The notes below the pieces were generated by a model. The model was not told where the DNA came from and did no database searches. It saw only the letters and a list, made by a program, of their open reading frames with translations. A program made the position numbers and the translations under genes. This document shows, in pieces, positions 891 to 62,243 of a stretch of DNA of 62,565 bases. Each line of letters begins with the position of its first letter. Positions within the stretch are counted from its first letter, which is position 1. This stretch comes from an uncultured Clostridia bacterium (GTDB lineage Bacteria; Bacillota; Clostridia; Christensenellales; Borkfalkiaceae), in the NCBI GenBank assembly GCA_944354535.1, contig CALVPY010000012.1, positions 1 to 62,565 on the forward strand. The letters are read 5' to 3'.

Positions 891-1670
891 TTAGGTATCG
901 TTCGTTTGGTCGGATGCCCGATGTTTTCGGAACAGGGCGAAAAGATAGGGGGCCGCTATGACGAACACGCCCGCAATAAAGAGCACGATCGACCAGAATT
1001 GGGAAGGGGAGAGGCTCCCGATCCATTGCCCCCGGTCATCGCTGCGCAAAAATTCGATGCAGAAGCGGAACACGGCATACGCCGTAAGATAGACGCCGAG
1101 CCCCGATATTTTGGTTTTGAACAGGAGTATGCTGAGCACGATGAACAGGAGGAGCAGGAAGATGCTCTCAAACAGCTGCGTGGGGATCACCGTCTTGCCG
1201 ACTGCGGGCAGATAGATGCCGTACCATTCGGTGGTCTCCCGCCCGTAGCAGCAGCCCGCGAACAGACAGCCGATGCGTCCGATGCAGTGCGCAGCGGCGA
1301 TCGCGCACGCCGCGATGCCCGTGACTTTGAAAAAGTACTGCTTCGGGAGTTCTCCGCAGAAGATCTTTCCGACGGCAAAATATCCTGTAAGAAAGACAGC
1401 TGCACCGCAGATGAGCCCGCCGTAAAAGGTCATGCCGCGCCATTGAAAGACGCCCGTCTTGAGGAAGTGATAGACAGATTGGAACAAGATCGCGCCGCCC
1501 ATTCCTGCGGCGATCGCCGCAACGGCGGTGATATAGATGAGATTCTGAAGTTTTGTCGGGATCTTGAGGAGGTCGGAATAGATGCGCACTACGGCGAGCG
1601 CGAGCACGACTCCGATGAGCAGGCACCAGTCGTACAGCTCAAGACCTAAAAATGTAACGTCGGGGAACAT
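891..1670 (-). CDS. lgt: Prolipoprotein diacylglyceryl transferase
   Basis: Lgt transfers diacylglyceryl from phosphatidylglycerol to the lipobox cysteine of prolipoproteins in the cytoplasmic membrane. The 259-residue product has about seven hydrophobic segments, the Lgt signature block HCIGRIGCLFAGCCYG at mid-protein and the C-terminal RFCIEFLRSDDRG block. The Cys-rich form of the signature is the variant I associate with Clostridia. Length is normal for the family. It has its own promoter (TTGACA-17-TATACT), but no clear Shine-Dalgarno site precedes the ATG. Two lipoproteins further on (13,731 and 15,607) are natural substrates. Confidence 0.9.
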   Translation of the reverse strand: MFPDVTFLGLELYDWCLLIGVVLALAVVRIYSDLLKIPTKLQNLIYITAVAAIAAGMGGAILFQSVYHFLKTGVFQWRGMTFYGGLICGAAVFLTGYFAVGKIFCGELPKQYFFKVTGIAACAIAAAHCIGRIGCLFAGCCYGRETTEWYGIYLPAVGKTVIPTQLFESIFLLLLFIVLSILLFKTKISGLGVYLTAYAVFRFCIEFLRSDDRGQWIGSLSPSQFWSIVLFIAGVFVIAAPYLFALFRKHRASDQTNDT

Positions 1671-1700
1671 GATCTACCTGAGCGGAGGATTTTTATATGA

Positions 1701-1729
1701 AGTATATCACGCGCTGCTGAGATTGTCAA
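1701..1729 (-). promoter_or_regulatory. lgt promoter
   Basis: On the minus strand TTGACA (1729-1724) and TATACT (1706-1701) are separated by 17 bp, about 30 bp upstream of the lgt ATG. Confidence 0.75.
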
Positions 1730-1744
1730 GAACGCATCGGAAGT

Positions 1745-1950
1745 CATCTTGCGATTTGTGAGGAGTACGGCGTAAAAGACGATTCTTATGGACGCAGTAA
1801 TGGTGATCGCGGGACAGAAGTGAGGGAGCGAAGAAATACGCCTGAAGCGTCGAAACATGACGATCCTACTGTTATCTTGCGTATTGTAAGGACTTTCCAA
1901 GAAATTATCCTGCGTATTGTAAGGAATATGACAAATTTTATCTTGCGTTT
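1745..1950 (+). repeat. 33-bp-phased direct repeats upstream of the orphan ATPase
   Basis: A 21-bp element (TTATCTTGCGTATTGTAAGGA) occurs at 1872-1892 and, with one change, at 1905-1925. A third shortened copy starts at 1938, so the spacing is exactly 33 bp. A decayed copy (ATCTTGCGATTTGTGAGGA) lies at about 1746. The last copy supplies the -35 hexamer TTGCGT of the promoter for the gene at 1995. Phasing at about three helical turns suggests binding sites for one regulator, perhaps the product itself. The rest of 1731-1990 holds no gene I can support. Confidence 0.6.
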
Positions 1951-1971
1951 TATTTTCGGGCGTGCTATAAT
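1943..1971 (+). promoter_or_regulatory. Promoter of the ATPase gene at 1995
   Basis: TTGCGT (1943-1948) and TATAAT (1966-1971) are 17 bp apart. A good ribosome site (GGAGGTGG) follows before the ATG at 1995. The -35 lies inside the third phased repeat. Confidence 0.7.
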
Positions 1972-1994
1972 GTTGCTGTAACGGAGGTGGAAGC

Positions 1995-3353
1995 ATGTTG
2001 TTCAAAAGGAAAATTTACGATAAACTGATCGAGTGGAAGAAGGACGGAGCGGGGGAGAAGGCGCTGCTCATCGAGGGTGCGAGGCGGATCGGGAAATCCA
2101 CGATCGTCGAAGAGTTTGCGAAACGCGAATATAAAAGTTATTTGCTGATCGATTTCAACGACGCAAGCGATGTGGTGAAGGACGCTTTCAATAAGTATTT
2201 GGGCGACTTGGATACCTTTTTCATGCTGTTGACGACGGAATACAACGTCACATTGCATCCGAAAGGATCCCTTGTCATTTTTGATGAGATCCAGAAGTTT
2301 CCGAAGGCGCGGCAGTCGATCAAGAAGCTGGTGCAGGACGGGCGGTTCGATTATATCGAAACAGGCTCTCTGATCTCCATTCGCGAAAATGTAAAGGATA
2401 TCTCCATTCCGTCGGAGGAGCGGAAACTGAAAATGTATCCGATGGATTTTGAGGAGTTCTGCTTTGCGCTCGGCGAAGAAAAAATGATGGCGTATATCCG
2501 CAGGTGTTTTGAAGAGTTGAAGCCCCTGGAGGATGACCTGCACCATAAGGCGATGCTGCTGTTCAAACAGTATATGCTGGTGGGCGGGATGCCGAAAGTC
2601 GTGGAAAAATATGTATCGGGGAACAGAAGTTTTGCCGAAGCGGATCGGGAAAAGCGGGATATCCTCGCGCTGTACCGTGACGACATCGGGAAAGTGGACA
2701 GAACGTACAGGGCGAAAGTGTTGTCCGTATTCGATCAGATCCCCGCGTTCTTATCGCGGCATGAAAAGCGGGTACGTCTTTCCAATGTCGAGGCGGGATC
2801 GACGTATCCCTCGTATCAGGATACGTTCTTTTGGCTTGGCGATTCGATGATCGCTAACGAGTGCTTCAACTGTTCGGATCCGAACGTAGGGCTGTCGCTG
2901 AATGAGGAACGAACTGCGATCAAGTGTTACATGGGGGATACCGGGCTTTTGGTGAGCCATGCGTTCGATGAGAACGAACTTGCGGAAGAGGAACTCTACA
3001 AGCAGATCCTGCACGATAAACTTTCCATCAACGAGGGGATGTTGTTCGAGAACGCGATCGCGCAGTGCCTTGCGGCGAACGGACACAAATTGTTTTTTTA
3101 TACGCATTATGACGAAACAAAGCATCGCAACGATATGGAGATAGACTTTATTTTGTCGAACAACAGCAAGATGAAGCCAAAACTTTACCCCATCGAGGTA
3201 AAATCAGGGAAACGTTATACGACGGATTCGCTGGATCTGTTTTTGAGGAAATATCATCAGCGTATCGGCAGGGCGTATATTATCCACACGAAGAACCTGA
3301 CGGTAAACGGTGAGATCGTCTGTATTCCCTCTTATATGGCGATCCTTCTCTGA
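1995..3353 (+). CDS. AAA ATPase with C-terminal DUF4143-type nuclease-like domain
   Basis: This 452-residue protein belongs to the AAA_14/DUF4143 type of orphan ATPases. Walker A is GARRIGKST (about residues 29-37) and Walker B is LVIFDEIQ (about 93-100). A sensor-like ETGS follows at about 122. The C-terminal third contains DFILSNNS...PIEVKSG, which resembles a PD-(D/E)XK core (Asp, then Glu-x-Lys). The biological role of the family is unsettled; roles in defence or chromosome-associated regulation have been suggested. No partner gene is adjacent in the same operon. It marks the left side of the accessory island and is one of three such ATPases in this window (also 22,578 and 33,540). Confidence 0.8.
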   Translation: MLFKRKIYDKLIEWKKDGAGEKALLIEGARRIGKSTIVEEFAKREYKSYLLIDFNDASDVVKDAFNKYLGDLDTFFMLLTTEYNVTLHPKGSLVIFDEIQKFPKARQSIKKLVQDGRFDYIETGSLISIRENVKDISIPSEERKLKMYPMDFEEFCFALGEEKMMAYIRRCFEELKPLEDDLHHKAMLLFKQYMLVGGMPKVVEKYVSGNRSFAEADREKRDILALYRDDIGKVDRTYRAKVLSVFDQIPAFLSRHEKRVRLSNVEAGSTYPSYQDTFFWLGDSMIANECFNCSDPNVGLSLNEERTAIKCYMGDTGLLVSHAFDENELAEEELYKQILHDKLSINEGMLFENAIAQCLAANGHKLFFYTHYDETKHRNDMEIDFILSNNSKMKPKLYPIEVKSGKRYTTDSLDLFLRKYHQRIGRAYIIHTKNLTVNGEIVCIPSYMAILL

Positions 3354-3470
3354 TCGGCGTTCTCGCTTGAATAACTCCCCCGGTTTACCGGGGGAAGTAA
3401 AATATACTTTAGTGAAAAAAACTCTGTGTTATCATTAATGAAGGTTTGGCGACCGCATCAATAAAAACGC

Positions 3471-3499
3471 TTGACTTTTTATTAGAAATATGATATTAG
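3471..3499 (+). promoter_or_regulatory. Probable promoter of the nuclease-island operon
   Basis: TTGACT (3471-3476) and TATTAG (3494-3499) are 17 bp apart, 30 bp upstream of the ATG at 3530. The rest of 3354-3529 is AT-rich and holds only a small CCCCCGG/CCGGGGG hairpin (3377-3394) without a T-tract. Confidence 0.5.
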
Positions 3500-3529
3500 T
3501 ATTTATGAAACGTATATGAGAGGAACAGA

Positions 3530-3892
3530 ATGAATTTTGATGTAGAACTTTTTAACAAGACGTACCGAGGGACAAGATGGTTCTCGGAAGAGAGCAAATA
3601 TTTTACGGAATTTTTGCGAGATATTCAGAATGCGGAACTCATGTCGCATTTGAGATTCTGCAACGATTTTCTTCAAATTCCGCCAATTTACGCCTATGTA
3701 CGATATCGTCGCGATCTGTACACGGGATCGCTTGAAAAGAAAGAAAAACTTGCGCTCGGCGCATGTTTTGGATTTTTGTTTCAGTACGGCGAATATTCTG
3801 CGCTTTATGGATCAAACAGCGCGCACAGTGTTTGGGTGGGAGACAAAGTGACGGGAATCAAAAACGCAAGCTATTTTGATAAAAGGAAATAA
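3530..3892 (+). CDS. Unknown 120-residue protein, first gene of the AT-rich island
   Basis: I do not recognise this protein. It is soluble, rich in Phe, Tyr and Arg (for example RYRRDLYTGS at about residues 62-71), and has no signal peptide or membrane segment. The ribosome site AGAGGAAC lies just before the ATG. Only 4 bp separate its stop from the ATG of the next gene, so it is almost certainly cotranscribed with the nuclease-like protein and may act with it as a partner, antitoxin or sensor. Base composition is much more AT-rich than the flanking metabolic genes, which suggests transfer. Confidence 0.6.
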   Translation: MNFDVELFNKTYRGTRWFSEESKYFTEFLRDIQNAELMSHLRFCNDFLQIPPIYAYVRYRRDLYTGSLEKKEKLALGACFGFLFQYGEYSALYGSNSAHSVWVGDKVTGIKNASYFDKRK

Positions 3893-3896
3893 AAAG

Positions 3897-4730
3897 ATGG
3901 AAGAAACTCTTGAAACCATATTTACATCACGCATAGACGACATCGTAATGTCTCAAAAATTCGTTTATAAACAGTTGAACGACTATACAAGTGCAAAAAA
4001 TAGAGACAATGACCTTGAAAAATTTGCTATTATGAACGGTATTTGGCAGGAATATCTTGTCAGAAGTGTATGTAAATATGACATTAATTTCTTCGAAACG
4101 ATTCCCGCCATTGACAGAAGTAAAGATATTTTTAAAGTCAATCGTGACTATAAGCCAAAGAATCCCGAAAAATGTGCCGAAAGAAACCACTGCCATTGGT
4201 TTTGTAAAAATCAGCAAAACAAATTTCCTCAAATTATTTTATACGATCGTGAAGTGCCGATCAAACAAACAGGTGCGAATAAACGCGTTGGAAAAATCGA
4301 TCTCGTTGGTGCGGATAACGATGAAATGGTAATCATTGAATATAAAATCGCTAACAGTCCTGAACCGCTTCTGCGAGCAGTTGCAGAAATCGTGACATAC
4401 TTTCATCAGATCGGCGGAAAGAACGGCGCGACAACGTATTTGGAACAGTTTAACAAAACGTTTGGCTTGAACTGCAAAAAAGTCGGCATGGCTGTCGCAG
4501 TTCCTGAGATTATGTATAGGGCGGCACATCGCTATGCATTCGATCTTATCCAAAAGTATGAGATCCGCTGCTATTCCGTTGACGCAAGGTCTGACGATGA
4601 GCCTGAGACCATAGAGATCAAAAGAATTGACAACGAAGCTCTCAGAAACTATCGCGAAGAATCGGAAGACAATATGAAATTTGTCTACGATCATTCCGAC
4701 GATATTGTTGCACGCATTAAAAACGACTGA
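3897..4730 (+). CDS. PD-(D/E)XK nuclease-superfamily protein
   Basis: The 277-residue product shows a PD-(D/E)XK-like core: GKIDLVG followed 13 residues after the Asp by IIEYK (Asp at about 136, Glu-x-Lys at about 149-151). A helix with Arg and Gln (LLRAVAEIVTYFHQ) follows, as in many restriction-type nucleases. The N-terminal half is helical with a Cys/His cluster (CAERNHCHWFC, about 92-102) that could bind metal. I chose ATG 3897, which has AAAGGA ten bases upstream, over an upstream in-frame TTG at 3876 that would overlap the previous gene. It sits between an unknown protein and a nuclease-like fusion, so the predicted activity is DNA or RNA cleavage; the target is unknown. Confidence 0.65.
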   Translation: MEETLETIFTSRIDDIVMSQKFVYKQLNDYTSAKNRDNDLEKFAIMNGIWQEYLVRSVCKYDINFFETIPAIDRSKDIFKVNRDYKPKNPEKCAERNHCHWFCKNQQNKFPQIILYDREVPIKQTGANKRVGKIDLVGADNDEMVIIEYKIANSPEPLLRAVAEIVTYFHQIGGKNGATTYLEQFNKTFGLNCKKVGMAVAVPEIMYRAAHRYAFDLIQKYEIRCYSVDARSDDEPETIEIKRIDNEALRNYREESEDNMKFVYDHSDDIVARIKND

Positions 4731-4784
4731 ATGTCGGTTTTTATCGACTTATGATATGGATATACTTTATCGCAAGAGGTGTGT

Positions 4785-6662
4785 ATGATATATTTTGACA
4801 TGGAAAGTCATCTCGGTACGCTCTATAAAATCGAGGCAACTGCTTGGGAAAACGGCAAACCGAAAGACAAATTTTTCGCGGTTACAAACGCCGATGTGCC
4901 CGATGCTGTGAGACGCATTACGGGTATCACGCACGAACGATCTCTTATCGGCACGGATGAACGAGAAGCGGTGTTTGCGTTTTGGGATTTTTTGCAGCGC
5001 AATCATGCGGTGGCGCCGCAAAAGATTGTTGTGAACGGAAAGGAGTATCACAAACTTTCCTGTATCGGCTACGGCGTCGCACGGGAACTTCAAAAAATTT
5101 TCCTGCGATTCGGTATTCGTATCGGTTTCAACAACGTAGAGCGCGGCGATCTGTTTGAATATGCAAAAACATATTGTAATCATCTGCCGCTGAAAAGTTT
5201 TCGCCAAACCGTGGTGAACCGCTATTTTTCGATTCGGGAAACCGAGCTAAATTCGCTTCCTCTTTTGCATGCGGCTCTTATACGGGAAGCGACAAGACCA
5301 ATCACGGAAGAGGAATGCGAAATACTTGTGAGTCGGCTGACAAATCTTTCGGGAAAGGACGAAGATTTATTGCGCTCCTGCGAACGGATCGGGTTCGATT
5401 TGTACCGTATTCTCACGATAAGTGAAAAGCAATTTACCGATACGCTATCGTTTCTGTTTGAGAAAACGAAAACTCGCCCGTGCGCCGAGGACGATTGGCG
5501 TAGAATCGTTGCAAATATTGAAACAAGAGTTAAAAAATCCGACAGCGACAAAATGATGCAGCGGTTTGAAAATTCCCTCCCCGAACAGATACGGGAGATT
5601 TACCCGCTTGAATTGTCCTATAAAATTTTAGACGGCGAAGGAAGGATCGGGGCAAATTTGCTTGAAATCGGCTATCGTAAAACAAAATTGCTCGTTGAAT
5701 GCGGTTTGGAACTCGAACCCACGGAATCAGGCAAGGCAATACGCAAAATCGTTCTGAACTCTCGGTATGACGCTTGTCTGGTTTCGCATTGCCATGCCGA
5801 CCATGCAGGGCTGATCGATAAAATCGAAAAGAAGACAAAGGTTTATATCGGGCCTACCGCAAAGCGTATCCTGCAAATTACCGAAAAAAAGAGATATGGA
5901 AAAGTGCTGACGTTCAACGGAAAAATGAATATCGGCGGGATAACCGTTACGCCGTATTTGTGCGACCATTCGGCAATGGACAGTTATATGCTTCACTTTT
6001 CCGCAAACGGAAAGAGCATTTTATATACAGGGGACTTCCGCGGGCACGGCAGAAAGAGTTACTCCTCGCTTCTGTCTCGTCTTCCGCAAGTTGACATTCT
6101 CATTTGCGAACGAACCAATCCCGCCGATATAAAGGCATGGAGCGAAGCGAAGCTGCAGGAAAAGTTCGAAGAATTGATGCGGGGAAAACGCGATATTTAC
6201 GTATTGACCGGTACGATGAATGTAGACCGCATTGTAACGATTTATAAGGCAAGCCGTAAAACACGGCGGCCTATCCTGGTAGACGGCACTCAAGCACTGC
6301 GGCTCAATAAAATCGGCGGCAGCATACCGCACCCGCGGTCACATAAAGAAATCATAGTCGTTCGTCCCTCCGCTGCACGCATATTTTCAGGGATGCAGCC
6401 ATATACGATGCTGGTTCGGAGTTCTATGGCCGATGCACTGGCCAAATTGCTGGAAACACGCCCCGATTCAGCATTGATATATTCCATGTGGAGCGGCTAC
6501 CGCGAAAAAGAGGAGATAAAACGATTGCTCGAAATATTCGAACGGCGGAATTGTCCGATTTACACTTTGCATACGTCCGGACATGCCGACAGCGACGCAA
6601 TTCAAAAACTCATCGACACAGTTAAGCCGAAAGAGATAAAATATGTACACGGAGAAGTATAG
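4785..6662 (+). CDS. DEDDh exonuclease-like domain fused to an RNase J-like MBL/beta-CASP domain
   Basis: This 625-residue protein joins two nuclease folds. The N-terminus reads like a DnaQ/DEDDh exonuclease: FDMES (D5, E7), then RITGITHE (44-51), which matches the conserved TGIT block, and a later GDLFEYAK (D122). The usual second-motif Asp and the third-motif His/Asp pair are not evident. A linker of about 140 residues follows. The second half is a metallo-beta-lactamase with HCHADH (H335, H337, D339, H340), CDHSAMD, YTGDFR, an acidic motif (LICERTNP) and a C-terminal SGHA...VHGE, the beta-CASP/RNase J signature. It ends at that motif, without the C-terminal domain of RNase J. The ATG at 4785 is preferred over GTG 4779, which lies in the ribosome site. 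Likely cytosolic nucleic-acid processing; substrate unknown. Confidence 0.75.
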   Translation: MIYFDMESHLGTLYKIEATAWENGKPKDKFFAVTNADVPDAVRRITGITHERSLIGTDEREAVFAFWDFLQRNHAVAPQKIVVNGKEYHKLSCIGYGVARELQKIFLRFGIRIGFNNVERGDLFEYAKTYCNHLPLKSFRQTVVNRYFSIRETELNSLPLLHAALIREATRPITEEECEILVSRLTNLSGKDEDLLRSCERIGFDLYRILTISEKQFTDTLSFLFEKTKTRPCAEDDWRRIVANIETRVKKSDSDKMMQRFENSLPEQIREIYPLELSYKILDGEGRIGANLLEIGYRKTKLLVECGLELEPTESGKAIRKIVLNSRYDACLVSHCHADHAGLIDKIEKKTKVYIGPTAKRILQITEKKRYGKVLTFNGKMNIGGITVTPYLCDHSAMDSYMLHFSANGKSILYTGDFRGHGRKSYSSLLSRLPQVDILICERTNPADIKAWSEAKLQEKFEELMRGKRDIYVLTGTMNVDRIVTIYKASRKTRRPILVDGTQALRLNKIGGSIPHPRSHKEIIVVRPSAARIFSGMQPYTMLVRSSMADALAKLLETRPDSALIYSMWSGYREKEEIKRLLEIFERRNCPIYTLHTSGHADSDAIQKLIDTVKPKEIKYVHGEV

Positions 6663-6663
6663 G

Positions 6664-7017
6664 ATGATGATCAAAACGGGGATTTTTTGGTTTGTACGCG
6701 GCGAAATGATCGCGGACAGATACGATTATATCTTAGAAGAGCAAAAACAAAGCGATTTTATCGACTATCCGTATTCCCATTTTGATATGTGGGATAAATT
6801 GAGCAATAATCAGTTTCCATATGCGGATTTTGCGACATACCCGCGCGGCAGACTGTTATTCGACGTGAAGAACGGACAATATCTTTTATACCTTGATCGC
6901 TGTATTACGGACGTAGAGACAAAAAAGCTGATACAATTCTATGACCTTGAAAAAGATGGGTATATCCTTTCCCGCGACGAGCATTACAGCTGCGATATGT
7001 GCTGCCGAATTTCATAA
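6664..7017 (+). CDS. Unknown 117-residue protein downstream of the MBL fusion
   Basis: I do not recognise the family. It is a soluble, Tyr/Asp-rich protein ending in a Cys pair (DMCCRIS). An in-frame ATG at 6643 lies inside the upstream gene; the ATG at 6664 has GGAG nine bases upstream and begins immediately after the TAG of the fusion protein, so translation is probably coupled. Several conserved-looking aromatic and acidic positions (FVRGEM, PYSHFDMWD) would make it findable by profile search. It presumably works with the nuclease-like proteins of the same operon. Confidence 0.55.
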   Translation: MMIKTGIFWFVRGEMIADRYDYILEEQKQSDFIDYPYSHFDMWDKLSNNQFPYADFATYPRGRLLFDVKNGQYLLYLDRCITDVETKKLIQFYDLEKDGYILSRDEHYSCDMCCRIS

Positions 7018-7041
7018 TTTGATAAAACAGGAGAAAAACGG

Positions 7042-7248
7042 ATGGCTATCATACAAAAAAAGCTTGACGAAATCAAGGCTTATATTCAAACGAATCCGCA
7101 CGCCCGGGTCAGCATGAACGAAGACGTAGACCTGTTCACGGGTATCAAGAATAAAAAGTGCAAAAAAGGCAGCCGCGACATAGCGGCTGCCGGAGAAAAG
7201 CGATGCGCTGCGAAATTTCGGTACCCGTTGACGGGTGCGCCGGCATGA
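7042..7248 (+). CDS. Small protein whose 3' part runs into GC-rich hairpin sequence
   Basis: The ATG has a good ribosome site (CAGGAG, spacing about 8) and the first 41 codons (MAIIQKKLDEIKAYIQT... to KNKKCKK) look like a genuine AT-rich coding start. From about 7165 the composition changes sharply to GC-rich, and the last 27 codons are simply a translation of strong stem-loops. I read this as a gene truncated at the right boundary of the island and continuing by chance into the neighbouring sequence. It could instead be a real short protein. Function unknown. Confidence 0.35.
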   Translation: MAIIQKKLDEIKAYIQTNPHARVSMNEDVDLFTGIKNKKCKKGSRDIAAAGEKRCAAKFRYPLTGAPA

Positions 7249-7300
7249 TACCCTTATTTGGGTCTGTGCAAACCTTCGGTGGATGAGTATTGCTTTGAGA
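7161..7300 (-). ncRNA. Candidate structured RNA with minus-strand intrinsic terminator
   Basis: This stretch contains nested stems: 7168-7176 with 7183-7191 (9 bp perfect), 7223-7227 with 7232-7236, 7250-7253 with 7260-7263, and ACC/GGT near 7273-7281 enclosed by GCAA/TTGC. The 9-bp stem is followed on the minus strand by six T (plus-strand A run 7162-7167), the form of an intrinsic terminator, so a transcript would run leftwards and end at about 7161. I found no convincing minus-strand promoter. I cannot assign a family; it does not match the SRP, tmRNA or RNase P motifs I know. Confidence 0.35.
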
Positions 7301-7315
7301 TATTATGTCCTTAAG

Positions 7316-7378
7316 AACATTCCGCCGAATGTTATCTTATAAAAAATACTTTACATTTTGGTTGTGTACGGGTATAAT
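7316..7378 (+). promoter_or_regulatory. Promoter of the CPBP protease gene, with an upstream dyad
   Basis: TTTACA (7350-7355) and TATAAT (7373-7378) are 17 bp apart. The -10 ends only 7 bp before the ATG at 7386, so the mRNA may be leaderless. A perfect inverted repeat AACATTC-CGCC-GAATGTT (7316-7333) lies just upstream of the -35 and could be an operator. Confidence 0.6.
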
Positions 7379-7385
7379 GCGGACT

Positions 7386-8234
7386 ATGGAGAGGCTGATT
7401 TTTCTCAGAAAAGATCCGCTCACCGCGGCGGTGATCGTCTGTCTGTTTGCCGTCGGGCTCATCGGGCTTCCATATGAGAACGTGGGGGCGCTGCTTTCAA
7501 ACGACCCGCTCAAAGCTTCCCTGTCCGGGATGATCATCTGCCGGGCGGCGGGGCTTGCGGCAATGCTCTTTCTGCACCGCCTGATCGGGTTTTTCTCCGG
7601 CCTGCGGTTGCGGAAGGGCTCTTTTTGGGCGCTTTTGCCCGCGCTTTTGGTGGCCGTGAACAATGCGCCGCTCATCGCGCTCTTTTCGGGGAGCGCGGGG
7701 GTAACGGCGGGCGCAGAGCAGGTGATGTTGTTTGCGCTCGCGTGCGTCTTTGTGGCGTCCTTCGAGGAGCTGACCTTCCGCGGGATCGTCTTCCCGCTCC
7801 TGCTTTCTCACTTCGGCGCAGGGAAGCGTAAAAGGACAGCTGCCGTTCTTGCCTCTTCGCTGCTGTTCGGCCTCATGCACCTTGTCAACCTCGTCTCGGG
7901 GGGAGGGGTCGGAGAGACCTTTTTGCAGGCGGGTTACACCTTTCTGATCGGCGCGATGTTCGCCGTCGTGCTGCTTTGCAGGGGGGATCTTGCCGTGTGC
8001 ATCGTCCTGCATACCGTCTATAATTTCGGCGGGATGCTCGTTCCGACACTGGGATACGGATCGTTTTTCGATCTTTGGAGCATCCCCGCCATTGCCGTCA
8101 CGGCGCTCATCGGCGCCGCGGCGATCGTATTTTATCTCTTCGCGCTGCTGCGGCTCCCCGACGGCTGCGCAGAACGGCTGTATCGCCTCTCCGCAAGGCA
8201 GCGGTTCGTGCTGAACGGTGCGCTCACGGCGTGA
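7386..8234 (+). CDS. CPBP family intramembrane metalloprotease
   Basis: The 282-residue product is a multi-pass membrane protein with the three CPBP (Abi/Rce1-like) motifs: EELTFRG (Glu-Glu-x3-Arg), LLFGLMH (Phe-x3-His) and HTVYNFGG (His-x3-Asn), in the right order in the second half. Such proteins are membrane-embedded proteases; bacterial members are linked to bacteriocin immunity and peptide processing, but the substrate here is unknown. An in-frame start at 7305 would lie upstream of the promoter, so the ATG at 7386, directly after the -10, is preferred. No Shine-Dalgarno site is visible, consistent with leaderless translation. Confidence 0.85.
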   Translation: MERLIFLRKDPLTAAVIVCLFAVGLIGLPYENVGALLSNDPLKASLSGMIICRAAGLAAMLFLHRLIGFFSGLRLRKGSFWALLPALLVAVNNAPLIALFSGSAGVTAGAEQVMLFALACVFVASFEELTFRGIVFPLLLSHFGAGKRKRTAAVLASSLLFGLMHLVNLVSGGGVGETFLQAGYTFLIGAMFAVVLLCRGDLAVCIVLHTVYNFGGMLVPTLGYGSFFDLWSIPAIAVTALIGAAAIVFYLFALLRLPDGCAERLYRLSARQRFVLNGALTA

Positions 8235-9592: not shown

Positions 9593-10639
9593 TCAATAGT
9601 TGATGAGCGTCTTTGATTTGGAATCGAGGTTTTTCTTGTAGAAAGCGTGGGTGAAGGAGGTGTCGTCCAGGAGATAGTCCTCCTCGCTGATGCGGATCGC
9701 GATGGAGCTGTACTGCGGGTTGTCGTAGTCGAGCTCGTCGTTCTGAAAGGCCTTCCTGCACGCGTTGGGCGACATCCCGATCGTCTTATTGAATTCGTGT
9801 ACCATCTGCGCATAGGAGGGGAACCCGACCTGTTTTGCGATCTCGGTGACGGTCAGCCCCGTATCGCGCAGCATACGCAGACTCTTGGAAATGCGCAGTT
9901 CGTTGACCGTCTGCATGATCGTCTTGCCCGTGTGTGCCTTGAATTGGGTCGCAACATACGATTTGTGATAGCCGACTTCTCTTGCGATGTCGTCGAGGGA
10001 GATCTTCTGGTTGAGGTGATGTTTGATATAGAGCTGGATCTTCTTGATATAGTGCGCCCCGTATTGCTCGTACGCGACAAGGCTCTTTGAGATCTCCATG
10101 AACAGCATGAGGATGTGCCCGCGGAGGATGCAGGCGTCCTCGAGGTGCATATTCGTGTTCATGATCGCGTAGATGAGGTCGCGCAGGGAGCTGTCGATCT
10201 TGGAGAGGTTGGGGATGACGGTGTAGCCGTCGGGGGAAAAGGCAAGTTTTTTTAAGCTGGTGCGCTCGATCAGGGCGGCGTAGCTGATGGCAAACAGCGT
10301 ATTGATGCCGAAGGGCTCCTCCTTCTCATCGGCCTGCGGGATGAGCTCCACGTTGTAGATGACGACCTCCTCTTCCTCGATCTGCAGGCGGTGAAACAGA
10401 TAGGCGTCCAAAAAGATGAGCTCCCCCTGATGCACGGCGATCTTTTCGATCTTTTCCGCCTCCGCGTCGGATGCCGAGCGCATGATCTCGACGTTGAAGC
10501 TGCCCTTGGCGGAGTACATCATCTCGAAATAGGAGTGATTGTGCATCCCCATGTAGAAGGATGGCGTGAACTTTTTGATATAACACGACATGGGTTTGAG
10601 CTCGCGGTTGCCGATGTCTTTGAAACGGATCTCTTTCAT
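9593..10639 (-). CDS. AraC family transcriptional regulator
   Basis: The 348-residue protein has an N-terminal cupin-like sensing domain (with HNHSYFEMMY near residue 35, a typical sugar-sensing AraC feature) and a C-terminal double helix-turn-helix: ISLDDIAREVGYHKSYVA then LTVTEIAKQVGFPSYAQM. An extra tail of about 50 residues follows the HTH. It is divergent from the operon at 10,866 and likely controls it, and possibly the SGNH gene. The -10 box ends 6 bp before the ATG and no ribosome site is present, so the message is probably leaderless. Confidence 0.88.
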   Translation of the reverse strand: MKEIRFKDIGNRELKPMSCYIKKFTPSFYMGMHNHSYFEMMYSAKGSFNVEIMRSASDAEAEKIEKIAVHQGELIFLDAYLFHRLQIEEEEVVIYNVELIPQADEKEEPFGINTLFAISYAALIERTSLKKLAFSPDGYTVIPNLSKIDSSLRDLIYAIMNTNMHLEDACILRGHILMLFMEISKSLVAYEQYGAHYIKKIQLYIKHHLNQKISLDDIAREVGYHKSYVATQFKAHTGKTIMQTVNELRISKSLRMLRDTGLTVTEIAKQVGFPSYAQMVHEFNKTIGMSPNACRKAFQNDELDYDNPQYSSIAIRISEEDYLLDDTSFTHAFYKKNLDSKSKTLINY

Positions 10640-10645
10640 GTTCTT

Positions 10646-10674
10646 ATTTTAACACAAATGTTCCGATGAATCAA
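10646..10674 (-). promoter_or_regulatory. Promoter of the AraC gene (leaderless)
   Basis: On the minus strand TTGATT (10674-10669) and TAAAAT (10651-10646) are 17 bp apart. The ATG is at 10639, at the expected transcription start. Confidence 0.6.
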
Positions 10675-10759
10675 TGGCAAAAAGGCAAAAAAAGGGGCAA
10701 CTTCCACAAAAATATATAAGTCACAATGAAATAAATTTGGATAAATTCGCCAAAAGGGG

Positions 10760-10838
10760 TTGTCGAGCACGGGGGAGGGGTGCTATACTTGCGGTGCATC
10801 GGATGTTAGAAAATCAAAAAAAGTATGATTTTCTGACA
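10760..10838 (+). promoter_or_regulatory. Promoter and 5' leader of the first CAZyme operon
   Basis: TTGTCG (10760-10765) and TATACT (10784-10789) are 18 bp apart. The spacer contains the dyad AGCAC-N9-GTGCT (10766-10784). In the leader a 13-bp inverted repeat (10804-10816 with 10826-10838, one G-T pair) could stabilise the mRNA or bind a regulator. GGAGGAGG follows before the ATG at 10866. Confidence 0.6.
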
Positions 10839-10865
10839 TAAAATTAAAAAACGGAGGAGGAATTT

Positions 10866-13718
10866 ATGACAAAATTGCGTAAAAGAGTGTCGGCTGTTAC
10901 GCTTTCGGCGGCTTTGGCCGCGATGGCGGCAGGCTGCGTTGCAGGGTTCGTACCCCGCTTTGCAAACGCGGAAACAGACGCGGAAGCGGCAGAGCTCGCT
11001 CCGATCGCCAAGTATGAGTTCAAGGATGAAACCAACTTCGGCAAGGACAGCATGGGAAATTACGATATGTCCTACCGCAACTTATGGGTGGAAGGCGGCA
11101 CGGGGCCGCTCCTCGACAAGGGCACAATGATCGAAGGCGGCGGCGTGGAGTTCAACGGTGAATTCTGCGTTGCACAGGATCAGAACAACAACATTTTCTC
11201 CGATGTCACCGCCTTTACGCTTGCCTTTGAGCTCAAGACGTCCGCTAATGAGGAGTGGCAGCACTATCTCGGAGTTGCCGATCATACCCAAAATTATCTT
11301 GCCGTTGTCGGACGCGGCGGGAATGCCGGTTCTGCCGAAGCGAGCCAGGCGGCTCTGAATGCGTACGGAACGGGCGCGGGGACATATTGGGACAGCGCAT
11401 TTTTGAGCGATTCTTCCGCATGGGGCAAAGCAGAGACAGATTTCCAGAAAGTCATCATCAGCGCGCAGCCCGGCGGGCAGTTCAGGGTATTTATCAACGG
11501 AACAGAGTTTGTCAAGGACGGAAAACTCCCCGCAACGCTTGCGGAGGATTGGAGCCCCTACGATGCGTCGGTTCCGTTTTCGATCGGCGCACGTTATAAC
11601 GGCGCGGCAGACAGAACTTCCAAAGGTGCGGTCAAGAACGTGGTGTTCTATGACTTCGCAATGGATGCGGACTGCGCGGCGGCATACAACGCGAACGGCA
11701 AAGTGACCGCGGATGACGTGAAGGGCATGACGACCATCACCGGCCTTTCCGTCACGGACGAATCGTTCGGCGAAAACGCTCCCACCAAAGTCACCCTGTA
11801 TGCAGGGATGTCGGCGGAGGATATGCTCGCGCAGATGAATGAAGCCACTGCAACGGTCACGCTCTCCGACGGCTCGACGGCGACTGCGCCCGTCACCTGG
11901 ACGAGCATCACGCAAACGGACGGCACCTATTATGCGAACGGCACGGTAGATACCGTAAAAGTCGGCTATGCGAACGTGTACGGCAGCACCGTCAGCTTTG
12001 CGCTCGACGTTGCCAAGATCGAGAACATCGGCGAACCGCAGTTTGAAGGCGAGGTCACAAAGGGCGAACTTCTCGACAGCATGACGGAAGAGGAGATGCT
12101 CGCGCTCATCAACACAGCGACCGTTACCGTCACCCTCCCGGGCGGCGCGACCGAGGAAGTCACCGTCACATTCACGCGCATCGAGGGCAATATGGGCGTC
12201 TATACCGCCTGTGCGGACGTCCTTCTTAACGGCGCGGCGGTCGGTACCGTCCTCGTTCCCATCGATGTGACCGAGACCAACGAGGGCGATATGCAGGAGC
12301 TCTTGCCCGTCGCCAAGTACGAATTTGAGGATGCCTCCAACCCCGGCAAGGACAGCATGGGCAACTACGATCTCGGCCTCGTTGCAAAAGAGGGCGGTGA
12401 TACGAGCAATCCCTGGAAGACAGGTACGATCGAAAACGGCGTGATCTATTTGGACGGCACGGATATGCTTGCCTGCGCGGCGATGAACGACGTCGGCGAT
12501 AACCTGGATAACGGCTTTACGCTCAACTTCCAATACCGTCAGGACGGGGCTCAGCTCAACGCCTGGAATACGCCGGTCGGGTTCGGTTTTAACGATTGGA
12601 ATGTCAGCACAGTCTGCAGCTTCCGCGTGGAAGGCGGCTACAATCATCTGCGTGTCGCCGGGCACGGCGGCGTTGCGGAAGGGGACGGGAACACCTTCTA
12701 CGGCCCCGTTGTCGTGCAGGACGGCACGGACAGAATGCACAATGTGACGCTGAGCGTCCGCCCTGGTGAAAAATTCAACGTGTATGTGGACGGCGCGCTT
12801 GCTTATTCGACGGACTGCCCCGAAGGCTGGAACGTATCGCATTCCAACATGGCGTTCTCGATCGGCGGTGAGTGTGTCTGGGGCAACGGTTACAATTCCT
12901 TTAAGGGCTGGATCGACAACGTCAGTATCTACAACTTTGCGGTCAGCCTCGAACAGTCCAACGCATATTGGGAAAAGGGCAAACTGACGGTCGGCGATAT
13001 GGACGGCGAGATCATCACCTCTATCGCTTCGACGCCCAAGTTTGAAAACGACGAAGTGACGAACGGCAATCTGACCGACAGACTGAGCAACACGCAGGCA
13101 GTCCGCCGCGTCAATCCCGCCACGGTGGACGCCGTGTTTGAAAATGAAGAGACGATCGCGCTCAACGTCACCTGGCAGGGCTTGGAACAGGACAGCGACG
13201 GCAAGTGGTACATCGTGGGCGTCGTCGATCCGAGCAACATCGGTTATGCGACCCTTCTGACGACGGCACAGGAAGTGCGGCAGGAAGTCACGGTGGAGCG
13301 CGTGGCGCGTGCGGTCAGCGTGGCTTCGGGCGTCAAGAACGGCTCGGTCACGGCAGATAAAGAGGAGGCATACCTTGGCGATACGGTCACGTTTACCGTG
13401 ACGCCCGACGAAGGCTACGAAGTCGACAGCGTGACGGTCAACGGCGAAGCGCTTACGGCAAATGCCGACGGAACCTATACCTATACGGTGGAAGGCATCG
13501 AGGACATCGAAGTCTCCGCATCCTTCAAGGCTTCCTCGACCGAGGGCGGCGAAGGCGAAGGCGGCGAAGGCGACGGCGCCGCGGACGTCGGGTGCAACGG
13601 CGGCTGCAGCGGCGGGATCTCGAGCAGCCTTGGCATCGGCAGCGCGGTCGTCATTGCGGCATCTGCTGCGGCGGCGATCCTGTTCCTCAGAAGAAAAAAG
13701 GACGATAAGCACGAATAA
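10866..13718 (+). CDS. Surface-anchored protein with two LamG-like domains, Ig-like repeats and a Cys-Gly-rich membrane anchor
   Basis: The 950-residue protein starts with a signal peptide (cleavage near ANA-ET, residue 35). Two LamG/concanavalin-like regions (about 45-280 and 480-700) share the opening AKYEF...GKDSMGNYD. Beta-sandwich segments of bacterial Ig type separate and follow them (about 290-480 and 705-810). A basic repeat with GDTVTFTVTPDEGYEVDSV (about 838-856) precedes an acidic Gly/Glu linker, a CNGGCSGG motif, one membrane helix and a RRKKDDKHE tail. No sortase LPXTG motif is seen. It heads the sugar-uptake operon, so binding glycan at the cell surface is the likely role; an enzymatic LamG activity cannot be excluded. 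Confidence 0.8.
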   Translation: MTKLRKRVSAVTLSAALAAMAAGCVAGFVPRFANAETDAEAAELAPIAKYEFKDETNFGKDSMGNYDMSYRNLWVEGGTGPLLDKGTMIEGGGVEFNGEFCVAQDQNNNIFSDVTAFTLAFELKTSANEEWQHYLGVADHTQNYLAVVGRGGNAGSAEASQAALNAYGTGAGTYWDSAFLSDSSAWGKAETDFQKVIISAQPGGQFRVFINGTEFVKDGKLPATLAEDWSPYDASVPFSIGARYNGAADRTSKGAVKNVVFYDFAMDADCAAAYNANGKVTADDVKGMTTITGLSVTDESFGENAPTKVTLYAGMSAEDMLAQMNEATATVTLSDGSTATAPVTWTSITQTDGTYYANGTVDTVKVGYANVYGSTVSFALDVAKIENIGEPQFEGEVTKGELLDSMTEEEMLALINTATVTVTLPGGATEEVTVTFTRIEGNMGVYTACADVLLNGAAVGTVLVPIDVTETNEGDMQELLPVAKYEFEDASNPGKDSMGNYDLGLVAKEGGDTSNPWKTGTIENGVIYLDGTDMLACAAMNDVGDNLDNGFTLNFQYRQDGAQLNAWNTPVGFGFNDWNVSTVCSFRVEGGYNHLRVAGHGGVAEGDGNTFYGPVVVQDGTDRMHNVTLSVRPGEKFNVYVDGALAYSTDCPEGWNVSHSNMAFSIGGECVWGNGYNSFKGWIDNVSIYNFAVSLEQSNAYWEKGKLTVGDMDGEIITSIASTPKFENDEVTNGNLTDRLSNTQAVRRVNPATVDAVFENEETIALNVTWQGLEQDSDGKWYIVGVVDPSNIGYATLLTTAQEVRQEVTVERVARAVSVASGVKNGSVTADKEEAYLGDTVTFTVTPDEGYEVDSVTVNGEALTANADGTYTYTVEGIEDIEVSASFKASSTEGGEGEGGEGDGAADVGCNGGCSGGISSSLGIGSAVVIAASAAAAILFLRRKKDDKHE

Positions 13719-13730
13719 GGAGGGTTTCCA

Positions 13731-15536
13731 TTGAAACAGACGAAAAAGAAATGGCTTCAGATCGCGGGAGCCGTAAGTATGGCGGCGGCGCTTGCGATCC
13801 CGATGACGGCGTGCGGGCCTATGGCGCCCGACGACGATGCTCCCTACGAACCGCCCGAAGAATGGCACGAGGAAGTGGTGGACAACATCACGATGTTCTG
13901 CAACGACTGGGAACAGTTCAACAACGGCGCCGCCGTCAGGAGCCCCGTGTATAAGGAGCTCGTCAAAGCGGCGGGTACAGAGCTGAAAGCGAAATCGACG
14001 GGCAATGAGACGTACTATTCCCAGCTCGATCTGATGCGCGTGGAGCAGCAGCTTCCCGAGATGTTCATCATCGACGGACCGACCAATCCCGAACTGTACC
14101 GCGGCCTCATCCGCGACGGCGAGATCATTCCCATCACCTACTACGTCAACGAGAACACCAAGGATAAGTATCCCTATCTCTATGAGTATCTCGAGCAGTT
14201 CTCCTACATGAAGACCAATCTGTCCTATGCGAAGAACGAGATCTGGTTCATCCCCGTCAAGTGGACGAACGAGAAGTCGCTCTACGTCAGAAGAGACTGG
14301 ATCCGCAATCTCAACAACAAGATCGACGAGATCCTCGTGGGAGACGACGTGGTGTCCGATGCGTCGGAGGTGACGGACGAGCTGCGTGCGGAATACCGCT
14401 TCAGCGAGGAAGGCCCTGCCGATCTCGGGGAATTCTACCGCCTTGCCCGTGCGTTCACGCTGTACGATCCCGACGGGAACGGGCAGAAGGATACCTACGG
14501 CTATGTGACGGAAGAAAACCGCGACATGGATTCCTGGCTGCACGTCGCTTACGACAGCCCCTGGAAGATGTGGGTCGCGGACGAGGAAGGCAACTATCAC
14601 AATACGGCGACCTCGGACGGCTCCATGCTCGCGACGTCGCTGCTCAACAAGATGATCTCCGAAGGCTACATGAGCCGGGAAGTCGGCATCAATACGGTCG
14701 GCAACAAGCAGGACGACTTCGCGATGGGCAAAGCGGGCATGATGTACGCGCACAACTGGTACAACGTCATCAGCGCGAACATGATGAGCGCCGTCAGCGG
14801 GCTTTCGATCGAGGGCGCGCGCGACAGGATCCTCATCTGCGATCCTCCCGCAGGCGCCGACGGCAGCTTCGGCGGCCAGGGCAATGTGTATTACTACCGC
14901 GGGTGGTGCATCCGCGAGGGCATGAGCGTGGAGCGCCTCGAGGCCTGCCTCAACCTCATGGAATACCTGCACAGCCCCGAAGGCATCGAGCTCGTGACGT
15001 ACGGCGTGTACGGCGAGCATTGGGAATGGGTGAACGACGAGGTCGGCGGCGAGCGCGTGACGCTCTGCGAACCGGACGGGCAGGGCTTCGTGCAGGAGCT
15101 GCGCTGGACGGACTACGCGGCGTTTGCAAGCTACCTCACCTATACGCCGCCCGAAGCCAAGGCGCTCCTTACGAACGGCGACATCCTGGTCGAGCGCGAT
15201 TCCGCTTCTGCGGCGACGATGACCATCTCCGATTATCCCGACCTGTACACCGAATCGATGATCAAGTATCAGGCGGGTGCGTATGACTTCTTCGACGAGA
15301 CCGTCCTTACCATGATCACCAATTCTTCCCTGACGGCAGATTGGACGTTCGACGCAAAGACGTGGAAGACAGATTGGAAGGAGAAGATGTATTCCGTGAG
15401 CGACGCGATGCGCTCCGCCTGGGATGACTTTGCCGCCCAATATATGGATGTCTACTACGGCAGCCTCATGGAACAGGAGTACAACGAAGCGGTGAAGTCC
15501 GGGAATATGGTCAAAGTCGGTAAGATGCCCGATTGA
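13731..15536 (+). CDS. ABC transporter sugar-binding lipoprotein (CUT1 type)
   Basis: The 601-residue product begins with a lipoprotein signal (MKQTKKK... lipobox MTAC, Cys at about 28). The body resembles the large extracellular solute-binding proteins that pair with LplB/LplC-type permeases, and its length of about 550-600 residues fits that subgroup. The start is an unusual TTG at 13731, supported by AAGGAGG just upstream and by the complete signal peptide that follows. It should deliver oligosaccharide to the permeases at 17,313 and 18,349. A stable hairpin directly after the gene may protect its mRNA and raise its level over the permeases. Confidence 0.85.
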   Translation: MKQTKKKWLQIAGAVSMAAALAIPMTACGPMAPDDDAPYEPPEEWHEEVVDNITMFCNDWEQFNNGAAVRSPVYKELVKAAGTELKAKSTGNETYYSQLDLMRVEQQLPEMFIIDGPTNPELYRGLIRDGEIIPITYYVNENTKDKYPYLYEYLEQFSYMKTNLSYAKNEIWFIPVKWTNEKSLYVRRDWIRNLNNKIDEILVGDDVVSDASEVTDELRAEYRFSEEGPADLGEFYRLARAFTLYDPDGNGQKDTYGYVTEENRDMDSWLHVAYDSPWKMWVADEEGNYHNTATSDGSMLATSLLNKMISEGYMSREVGINTVGNKQDDFAMGKAGMMYAHNWYNVISANMMSAVSGLSIEGARDRILICDPPAGADGSFGGQGNVYYYRGWCIREGMSVERLEACLNLMEYLHSPEGIELVTYGVYGEHWEWVNDEVGGERVTLCEPDGQGFVQELRWTDYAAFASYLTYTPPEAKALLTNGDILVERDSASAATMTISDYPDLYTESMIKYQAGAYDFFDETVLTMITNSSLTADWTFDAKTWKTDWKEKMYSVSDAMRSAWDDFAAQYMDVYYGSLMEQEYNEAVKSGNMVKVGKMPD

Positions 15537-15553
15537 TCGAAAGTATGCAGCGG

Positions 15554-15578
15554 GAGCCGGGATCTGTTCCCGGCTCCG
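15554..15578 (+). promoter_or_regulatory. Intercistronic hairpin after the binding-protein gene
   Basis: A 10-bp perfect stem GGAGCCGGGA/TCCCGGCTCC with loop TCTGT is not followed by a T-run, so it is more likely a 3' mRNA stabiliser than a full terminator. Such elements commonly follow binding-protein genes in transport operons. Confidence 0.55.
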
Positions 15579-15606
15579 ATAATAAAACAAAAGACAGGAG
15601 GTCAGC

Positions 15607-17292
15607 ATGAAAAAACTTTTGGCGTGTATCTGTTCGGCGGTCTTGCTGCTTGGCGCAGCCGCAGGCTGTACTCCCGCAGAGAAAGAGCCCGGAGACGACG
15701 GAGGGGATAAAGTGATCGACAGAACAAAGCTTGCACAGATCTCGCCTACCGTTTATGATGTCGATGAGATCGTCACGGCAGAGGAGACGGAAGCCGGCGA
15801 CGTTCAGAGCTGGCAGGCGCAGGTGTTTACGTCCAACGGCGGCAACAACGATGATCCCACACCGAACGCGGTCATCCACAGCCCCTGGCATACGCTTGAG
15901 ATCAACGGCACGCAGGTGCCCGTCTATACGGCGCGCTGCGGCAAGAGCTCCCATTCGTTCGCCTGGGTGGACGTCGTCGATCATCAGGACGATTTCATCC
16001 TCGAAGTCAAGCTCACCATGCACAGGACGTATGCGCAGTGTGTCGTGCTGCCCGAAAGCAGAGAGGTAAACGCCTCCGTCGACGGGAAAAATATCACGTC
16101 CTACATCAGGGCGTACGGGTCTTTCACCTATACCTTTGCGACAAATGAAAACGCGAAAGTGACCGACCCTACGATGACGCCTCTCACCATCATGGTCACA
16201 AAAGAGGAAAAGCTCGAAGTCCCCGTGGGATACGACGTACAGTACATCGAACCCGGCTATCACGAAAACAACGAGCTTGAATTTACCGAAGAGTATATGT
16301 ATTACGTCTTCCGTCCCGGCCTGCACGAGATCTGCAGCATCAACGTGCCTGCAAACAGCGTGCTATGGCTGGAAAAGGGCGCGTATCTCAAGTGCAGCGA
16401 CCGCCTGCTCGACCCCGACAACCCGAACGGCGGCTACAATACGCAGACGGCGATCCATATGCAGGACTGCGAAAACCCGCAGGTGCGCGGGCGCGGCCTG
16501 CTCGATATGGGCGAGGTGCTCGGCGGCGACGGCAAGTATAAGCACGTCGTCAATGCAACTCGCTGTCAGAGCCCCGTCGTTACAGGGCTTACCATCATCA
16601 ATGCCAACACCTGGACGATGTGTTTCTACAATAACGACGATGCGCTCATGGAATACAACCTCCTGCTCGCTTACAGGACATACAGCGACGGGCTCATGAT
16701 GAGCGAATGCCGCGACAGCGTCGGAAGATACAACTTCGTGCGCACGGGTGACGACGCGATCGAGTTCAAGGGCACGGGCTGGGGCGGCGCGGCCGTCGGC
16801 AGCAACTGCGTCTATGAATACAACGACTGCTGGACGGACAAGGGCAGCGGCTACTGCCTGACCTGGGAATCGGCGTGCGATATGGAGAACATGACCTTCC
16901 GCAACAATTCTCTCGGGTTCGCCCAGCCCACCTGGAGCAGCGGCAACAACGCGCTCGACTGCCGCCTCGGCACGGATGCGGAGTCGCGCTGGGGGGACGT
17001 CGTATTTCGGGATATCGAGATCTATCATGTGATCTCGCCCAACGTCATCATCACGCAGATGTCGGGCGTCGGCGCCATCCTTGATAATATCCTGTTTGAA
17101 AACATCACGGTAAAATCTACCGAGCTCGGCGTGTTCGCCTATACCATGACCCTCAGCGGGGGCGGCTCTATCTCCAATATCCAAATCAAAAATTATAACT
17201 TCTGCGGAAGGCTCATCACCGCCGAAGATATCGAAGATCCCGCCGTCATCAATATTGAGGGCGTGCTTGAACCCGACCTGACGATTTCCTGA
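15607..17292 (+). CDS. Beta-helix glycosidase-like lipoprotein (GH49/GH28-like)
   Basis: The 561-residue protein has a lipoprotein signal (lipobox AAGC, Cys about 21). After an N-terminal beta-sandwich-like region (about 45-215) comes a right-handed parallel beta-helix with repeated N-rich rungs and the motif VRTGDDAIEFKG (about 379-390). The paired Asp of the TGDD motif is typical of GH28 polygalacturonases and GH49 dextranase-type enzymes. I favour GH49-like because of the N-terminal domain, but cannot prove it. It would be tethered outside the membrane and cut or bind the polymer before uptake. It lies between the binding protein and the permeases of one transporter, which ties its substrate to that system. 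Confidence 0.65.
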   Translation: MKKLLACICSAVLLLGAAAGCTPAEKEPGDDGGDKVIDRTKLAQISPTVYDVDEIVTAEETEAGDVQSWQAQVFTSNGGNNDDPTPNAVIHSPWHTLEINGTQVPVYTARCGKSSHSFAWVDVVDHQDDFILEVKLTMHRTYAQCVVLPESREVNASVDGKNITSYIRAYGSFTYTFATNENAKVTDPTMTPLTIMVTKEEKLEVPVGYDVQYIEPGYHENNELEFTEEYMYYVFRPGLHEICSINVPANSVLWLEKGAYLKCSDRLLDPDNPNGGYNTQTAIHMQDCENPQVRGRGLLDMGEVLGGDGKYKHVVNATRCQSPVVTGLTIINANTWTMCFYNNDDALMEYNLLLAYRTYSDGLMMSECRDSVGRYNFVRTGDDAIEFKGTGWGGAAVGSNCVYEYNDCWTDKGSGYCLTWESACDMENMTFRNNSLGFAQPTWSSGNNALDCRLGTDAESRWGDVVFRDIEIYHVISPNVIITQMSGVGAILDNILFENITVKSTELGVFAYTMTLSGGGSISNIQIKNYNFCGRLITAEDIEDPAVINIEGVLEPDLTIS

Positions 17293-62206: not shown

Positions 62207-62243
62207 CGGCGAAAACGCAAAAAAGAGAGATGTCATTTTGATA

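Follow-up and report, generated by a model that had tools for sequence, protein, structure and literature searches.

A recurring, mobile two-nuclease gene module from an uncultured Clostridia bacterium with a putative role in interference

We analyzed a 62,565-nt stretch of DNA (hereafter the window) from an uncultured Clostridia bacterium of the family Borkfalkiaceae (GenBank assembly GCA_944354535.1, contig CALVPY010000012.1). Near its left end, four plus-strand genes encode a 120-aa protein (p120), a predicted PD-(D/E)XK nuclease (PDX), a metallo-beta-lactamase (MBL)/beta-CASP nuclease and a small protein (p117). Comparative sequence analysis indicates that these genes belong to a real, recurring and mobile module with two nucleases, for which the libraries tested contain no counterpart. 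We favor, with a probability of roughly 0.56, its being a mobile system, centered on the two nucleases, that interferes with phages or plasmids.

Linkage, fusion and mobility of the module genes

We collected 34 MBL loci after removing duplicate contigs, 32 of them through MBL searches and two (L149 and L150; loci and genomes carry our own numbers) through p120. Outside this set are a remnant (L038), loci of RNase J (L021–L026 and L080) and part of the distant plasmid matches, from a search that matched 37 records and listed 20. A partner was defined as a match to our hidden Markov models (HMMs) within 2.5 kb of the MBL gene and on the same strand. By this definition, PDX or a second PD-(D/E)XK family (PDX2) lies beside the MBL gene in 29 of the 34 loci, p117 in 21 and p120 in 15, with p120 of L030 falling just beyond the 2.5-kb limit. 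Across the 1.05 Mb examined, only one PDX match, itself marginal (E = 9e-4), lay away from an MBL gene, and no PDX2 match did. As an independent check, the Cereibacter PDX2 protein matched five of 72,556 plasmid records, and an MBL gene was close by in all five. Similarly, p120 was found in 10 of 103 genomes of the genus and is adjoined by the MBL gene in nine (the exception being G066). In six of six control loci of RNase J, the four partners were all absent from flanks of about 1–1.5 kb.

The partners are also joined within single proteins. The N terminus of the MBL protein is fused to p117 in eight loci (L036, L043, L046, L047, L048, L051, L149 and L150), p117 and PDX are fused in L030 and L049, and PDX2 and MBL share a single 703-aa frame in L044. 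The gene order on a Rhizobium phaseoli plasmid is p117, MBL, PDX2. Because the assemblies are drafts, some of the splits and fusions could be artifacts of assembly; the open reading frame (ORF) caller takes the longest frame, giving some false antisense or over-long ORFs, and our counts rest on HMM matches. Judged by this linkage, p120, PD-(D/E)XK, MBL and p117 form one recurring unit. A reading made earlier from the sequence alone (the sequence-only reading) had proposed that the four intact genes are one system, to be abandoned if they were not conserved together; across the 34 loci they recur together.

The distribution of the unit is patchy. Within the family, 26 of 251 genomes gave a match at E = 1e-10, six of them through RNase J proper, leaving 20. 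Relatives are found on alpha- and betaproteobacterial plasmids. Signs of decay were seen as well: L038 keeps both module ends around an internal deletion, PDX2 is split in L036, and MBL is split in L057. Serine recombinase genes lie beside L040 (12279–13517), L041 (8344–9576) and L032 (11325–12221), and by eye all three seem truncated at the catalytic N terminus. This distribution points to a module that is accessory, mobile and patchy rather than housekeeping, and the MBL fusion is thus not the core housekeeping gene that would have counted against the sequence-only reading.

Two nucleases, small partners and pieces of the replisome

The MBL/beta-CASP nuclease, of RNase J type (4785–6662, plus strand), was characterized with Pfam, motifs, a structure model and hhalign. 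Pfam Lactamase_B and RMMBL both score over cut-off, and the protein has the residues expected of the beta-CASP MBL superfamily (HxHxDH, motif 3 His, motif 4 Asp, motif A Glu, motif B His and motif C His); H335, H337, D339, H340, H395, D417, E442, H600 and H622 do not vary across 24 sequences. The model (pLDDT 80) has PDB entry 2az4 as its best match and RNase J next. In a passage of PMC3095777, a His at beta-CASP motif C is assigned to RNA-acting enzymes and a Val to DNA-acting ones; the His found here therefore makes RNA the predicted substrate. Identity with RNase J itself was rejected: TIGR00649 gives 42–43 bits against a cut-off of 400, three relatives score 50–66 bits, and six real RNase J proteins, used as positive controls, score 564–579 bits.

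The catalytic part of the MBL protein starts at about residue 277 and is preceded by a helical part and, at residues 1–77, by a degenerate DEDDh-derived domain. When a profile of six relatives was compared with a set of genuine DEDDh domains, 15 in number and taken from the same genus, residues 2–77 aligned to DEDDh over 76 columns (hhalign 94.3%, E = 9.9e-8), and five decoy profiles reached at most 0.5%. Pfam and PDB sequence searches with this domain returned nothing relevant. Under the usual motif rules for Exo I–III, the Exo I residues D5 and E7 never vary, and by eye no Asp or His stands at the Exo II and III positions, leaving the DEDDh set of four acidic residues and a His incomplete. 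The alignment indicates that the domain descends from a DEDDh exonuclease; with these gaps, it has probably lost exonuclease activity. The DEDDh–MBL/beta-CASP fusion described in the sequence-only reading thus holds for the MBL/beta-CASP part and, as ancestry and for residues 2–77 only, for the DEDDh part.

PDX (277 aa; 3897–4730, or from 3876, plus strand) owes its assignment to D135 and E148-x-K150, which are invariant across 14 sequences and conform to the D...(D/E)xK motif, bearing out an earlier call of a PD-(D/E)XK-like protein. PDX2, a distinct family in the same slot at other loci, has invariant D196, E213 and K215 (10 sequences); it matched 0 of 348 in a phylum search that was run without a positive control. 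A PDB profile search with the PD-(D/E)XK protein gave no lead. The model of the L030 p117–PDX fusion (pLDDT 82) has a weak best PDB fold match (E = 1.1e-3), and several of its top PDB matches are known to hold the PD-(D/E)XK fold; its viral matches include named PD-(D/E)XK proteins. The N-half of PDX (residues 1–130) is hypervariable, at 31%–57% identity versus 88%–90% for the C-half (window, L030 and L049). Between L040 and L030, the MBL proteins are identical at 603 of 625 positions and the PDX N-halves at only 47 of 130. We infer that this is the pattern expected of a recognition part in an arms race, or of exchange by recombination.

The small proteins resemble little that is catalogued. 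Invariant GACFG and TGIK motifs mark p120 (3530–3892, plus strand; 13-sequence alignment), and p117 (6664–7017, plus strand), a small alpha/beta protein, has invariant FW, H39, W43, PRGR, D78 and D105-x-HY. Neither has a Pfam match, a convincing PDB match or a PADLOC match at E = 0.001. In the L030 fusion model, p117 forms a compact alpha/beta domain (block pLDDT 83–97). Some portion of this model is matched by a 136-aa phage protein (E = 1.6e-5), whose length suggests that the portion is p117.

Relatives of p117 also occur alone, in L073, L074, L079, L081 and L084, and beside toxin–antitoxin genes on Acinetobacter plasmids. DUF1643 genes lie near the stand-alone relatives of L081 and L084 (annotated) and L079 (by eye). 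On another contig of this genome (C7; L072, 2743–4056), a second p117-like domain is fused to a CPCC domain, within an array of small genes resembling an immunity-protein array. Among other neighbors, metallophosphoesterase-type genes follow the MBL gene in L059 and L087 (Cereibacter and Prevotella plasmids) and are perhaps an alternative partner.

Pieces of the replication machinery recur in the family. By an HMM scan of the 34 loci, seven have the DEDDh-derived domain, fused to the MBL protein, and four others have shrunken DnaE pieces. The 819-aa p117–MBL–DnaE fusion of L149 ends in matches to DNA_pol3_alpha (2.1e-33) and DNA_pol3_finger (7.9e-12); its C terminus matches the Pol III alpha chain (1.4e-28) only at positions 385–501, 640–705 and, weakly, 815–843. 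Since these are separate stretches of the chain, the DnaE part is internally shrunken. In L055 and L054, a separate shrunken DnaE copy adjoins the module (4.1e-16 and 2.3e-5, respectively). On a Butyrivibrio plasmid (L060), a same-strand run of genes continues downstream of the PDX–MBL pair. Two genes without assigned function come first; those after them (10483–16624) encode a DnaX-like protein, a DnaE piece of 480 aa, an AAA/M41 protein, a second DnaE piece (332 aa) and a p117–DnaA fusion, in which p117 stands N-terminal to the DnaA ATPase domain. None of the five shrunken DnaE copies matches the 260-position palm profile beyond its first half (the matches end at 121–143), and they are therefore unlikely to polymerize. 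The DnaE-type gene that lies 1.1 kb downstream in L039 is full-length, covering palm positions 1–260, and was not counted as a shrunken piece. The MBL end in L046 resembles a remnant of a DnaE tail.

The inserted segment and its flanks

In the window, the four module genes and a fifth ORF span 3530–7248 on the plus strand, spaced by gaps of 1–54 bp. GC content is 43.0% over 3461–7102 versus 56.0% in the window outside 1742–7340, in accord with the tightly packed, AT-rich run of five genes described previously. Across 258 same-length sliding windows downstream of the insert, GC averages 55.7% with a minimum of 48.1%; the module lies below that minimum, and the AT-rich island is therefore not a chance fluctuation. 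The fifth ORF (p68, 68 aa; 7042–7248, plus strand) is, as supposed, truncated: it is the remnant of a gene that has 287 aa in L032. The 287-aa gene has no Pfam match; p68 is possibly FtsK-like because L042 has an FtsK_SpoIIIE match at the same place.

The module genes lie where the sequence-only reading had placed an island (3400–7160), and the insertion is wider, at about 1742–7340. This segment of ∼5.6 kb, to which no strand is assigned, sits between a minus-strand gene at 891–1670, which we take to be lgt (prolipoprotein transferase-like), and a plus-strand Rce1/CAAX protease gene (rce1; 7305–8234), whose nucleotide match to relatives begins at 7341; the junctions are approximate and were set by eye. 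We opened four loci from 35 genomes with an rce1 match, and in three of them (L119, L120 and L121) lgt faces rce1 head to head with no insert. The fourth, L122 in genome G111, was rejected as an empty site; there lgt and rce1 are tail to tail. The module of G111 is on a different contig from these two genes.

The left edge of the module (3461–3529, plus strand) is set by nucleotide homology: similarity of L031–L033 to the window starts at 3459–3463 and lasts until about 7102. By eye, the edge holds a sigma-70-like TTGACT-17-TATTAG, resembled in L031–L033 and L038 (again by eye) and not listed by a strict promoter scan. To its left, the insert contains an AAA ATPase/DUF4143 gene (1995–3353, plus strand) that matches Pfam AAA_14 (1.6e-23) and DUF4143 (1.6e-16) and PADLOC candidate PDC-S01 (3.7e-108). 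A tblastn search of L001–L039 found this gene in this genome alone, with no match at L002–L039. It is probably a separate passenger in the same insert because it is absent beside L031–L033. No Rfam RNA was found in 1600–7400.

A 33-nt repeat (TTATCTTGCGTATTGTAAGGA...) occurs in three diverged copies at 1744–1937, upstream of the AAA/DUF4143 gene. Positions 1–774 of the window encode a protein with long tandem segments that are almost identical. The window (62239–62281) and L042 (12358–12400, within its FtsK-like frame) share an identical stretch of 43 bp that resembles the end of an insertion sequence (IS) or miniature inverted-repeat transposable element (MITE).

Defense, rival explanations and known systems

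We infer a defense role from the composition, mobility, decay and variability of the module. In such an interference module, the fast-changing N-half of PDX would recognize nucleic acid or protein of the invader, and its C-half would cut DNA. The beta-CASP protein would cut RNA, given its motif C His; the two cuts together would stop replication of the invader or kill the infected cell. Sensing might be coupled to cutting by p117 and p120, and the replisome-derived domains might tether the complex to the fork or mimic host replication proteins. A more specific version is tentative, and we hold it to be doubtful as it stands: an immune nuclease complex carrying pieces of the replication machinery as bait, where decoys or replisome tethers would trigger both nucleases once a phage attacks or hijacks the replisome. 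Integrated decoys in plant immune receptors offer an analogy.

The genomic context is mixed. The R. phaseoli plasmid copy adjoins restriction-modification genes, and the Butyrivibrio plasmid copy is 6–7 kb from an McrC gene. Several observations weigh against defense, or against so simple a picture of the module. Flanking proteins gave 24 PADLOC families at 1e-10, mostly as single generic matches, in a tally that shows neither the matching gene nor system completeness; it covered 123 of 138 picked proteins from 17 loci, leaving out eight over 1000 aa and seven of 110–329 aa. This tally gives no clear sign of a defense island around the module. Three scans of viral contigs found no module; they found no p120 and no p117, and the MBL query returned 14 partial MBL-domain matches without partners except for a marginal PD-(D/E)XK in L134. 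Five of the 34 loci (L039, L045, L052, L087 and L150) lack PD-(D/E)XK by HMM, of which L039 and L052 have a PD-(D/E)XK partner that is visible by eye. Many of these loci also went into building the HMMs, making linkage partly a matter of construction. Fourteen p117 matches are more than 2.5 kb from any MBL (one, in L060, at 6.6 kb), and a class search found p117 in eight of 291 genomes, with no MBL seen nearby in the seven beyond this one. Finally, the Butyrivibrio array of replication-type genes would also fit a role in replication.

That last point belongs to the strongest rival, which we consider unlikely: the module might serve the mobile element itself, in replication, transfer or the exclusion of competitors, using polymerase-, DnaA- and FtsK-type parts. 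The shrunken DNA polymerase III alpha genes, the DEDDh-derived domain, the FtsK-like neighbor in L042, the recombinase genes beside L032, L040 and L041, and the plasmid copies can all be read this way, as can the DnaX-like, two DnaE-like and p117–DnaA genes that follow the Butyrivibrio nuclease pair on its strand. However, no replication, transfer or recombinase gene is common to all loci, the five shrunken DnaE copies, with half a palm profile each, are poor candidates for polymerases, and many copies are on chromosomal-looking contigs.

Somewhat less likely still is a toxin–antitoxin-like addiction module, in which the nucleases would poison the cell, p117 and/or p120 would restrain them, and the element would thereby be retained. 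Small partners and mobility would suit such a module, as would the p117 relatives next to toxin–antitoxin genes in Acinetobacter and in the CPCC array of this genome. Yet in 10 loci p117 and a nuclease form a single fusion protein, an arrangement that most antitoxins do not show; moreover, eight loci (L035, L044, L056, L057, L059, L060, L088 and L137) have the nuclease pair without p117 or p120 within 2.5 kb.

It is improbable that the MBL protein is a lineage-specific RNase J paralog in ordinary metabolic RNA processing. Its fold and motifs are those of RNase J, and this genome, in an assembly that is 92.8% complete, has no RNase J over cut-off. But 23 of 26 genomes of the genus do have one, three of them (G111, G123 and G117) carry both RNase J and the module MBL, and the partner-free RNase J loci differ from a module that is patchy and inserted. 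As for unrelated genes lying together by chance in an AT-rich island, only the AAA/DUF4143 gene, unlinked to the rest of the insert, behaves accordingly; for p120, PD-(D/E)XK, MBL and p117, recurrence and fusions refute it, and we dismiss it.

The sequence-only reading had matched the module to no named system, and the libraries agree. In PADLOC-DB 2.0, the best matches are at E = 0.0066 for p120 (PDC-M33C) and 0.0075 for PD-(D/E)XK (Cas4), with none for MBL or p117; 10 relatives had no match at E = 0.1. We therefore rejected the catalogued PADLOC systems, the module proteins matching no model well. No NCBIfam model matched the module proteins at its cut-off. In literature searches on MBL/beta-CASP/RNase J and defense, EF2904/2AZ4 and polymerase decoys, the gene set appeared in no title or abstract opening among the matches listed. 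PDC-S01, represented by the AAA/DUF4143 gene, shares the insert with the module here and is not beside it in L002–L039.

Type VII CRISPR-Cas, in which a passage of PMC10910872 describes the beta-CASP RNase Cas14 as an effector that acts on RNA, was rejected as an identity: the Cas14 equivalog scores 33.4 bits against a cut-off of 800. The two are alike in having recruited a beta-CASP nuclease; they differ in that no array-like repeats were found in 1700–7400 and no PADLOC match to Cas5 or Cas7 among six cluster proteins.

RNase J (TIGR00649, NF047419) shares with the module protein the MBL and beta-CASP fold, motifs 2–4 and A–C, and the motif C His. In contrast, the module MBL is far under cut-off, accessory, mobile and kept with PD-(D/E)XK, p117 and p120. 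Its best match, by sequence profile (1.7e-30) as well as structure (4e-20), is Enterococcus faecalis EF2904 (PDB 2az4), at 17%–18% identity to the MBL part in the structural alignment. Relatives of the beta-CASP protein known from this crystal structure would thus gain partners and a predicted role.

If the module is indeed defensive, it would add a design with two nucleases (predicted to act on DNA and RNA) and exchangeable parts, found from Clostridia to Proteobacteria and uncatalogued in the libraries tested, and the parts derived from the replisome would offer an instance of bacterial decoys that can be tested directly. Passages of PMC12799240 describe trypsin–MBL nuclease–protease pairs in Hachiman, AVAST, Lamassu and DRT, whose MBL proteins are ComEC-like and cut DNA, not RNA. 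The module MBL differs from those described there in being a beta-CASP protein, with no Pfam match to a trypsin-like protease in the cluster. It resembles them, as far as those passages go, in that an MBL nuclease would serve as a reusable part of bacterial immunity.

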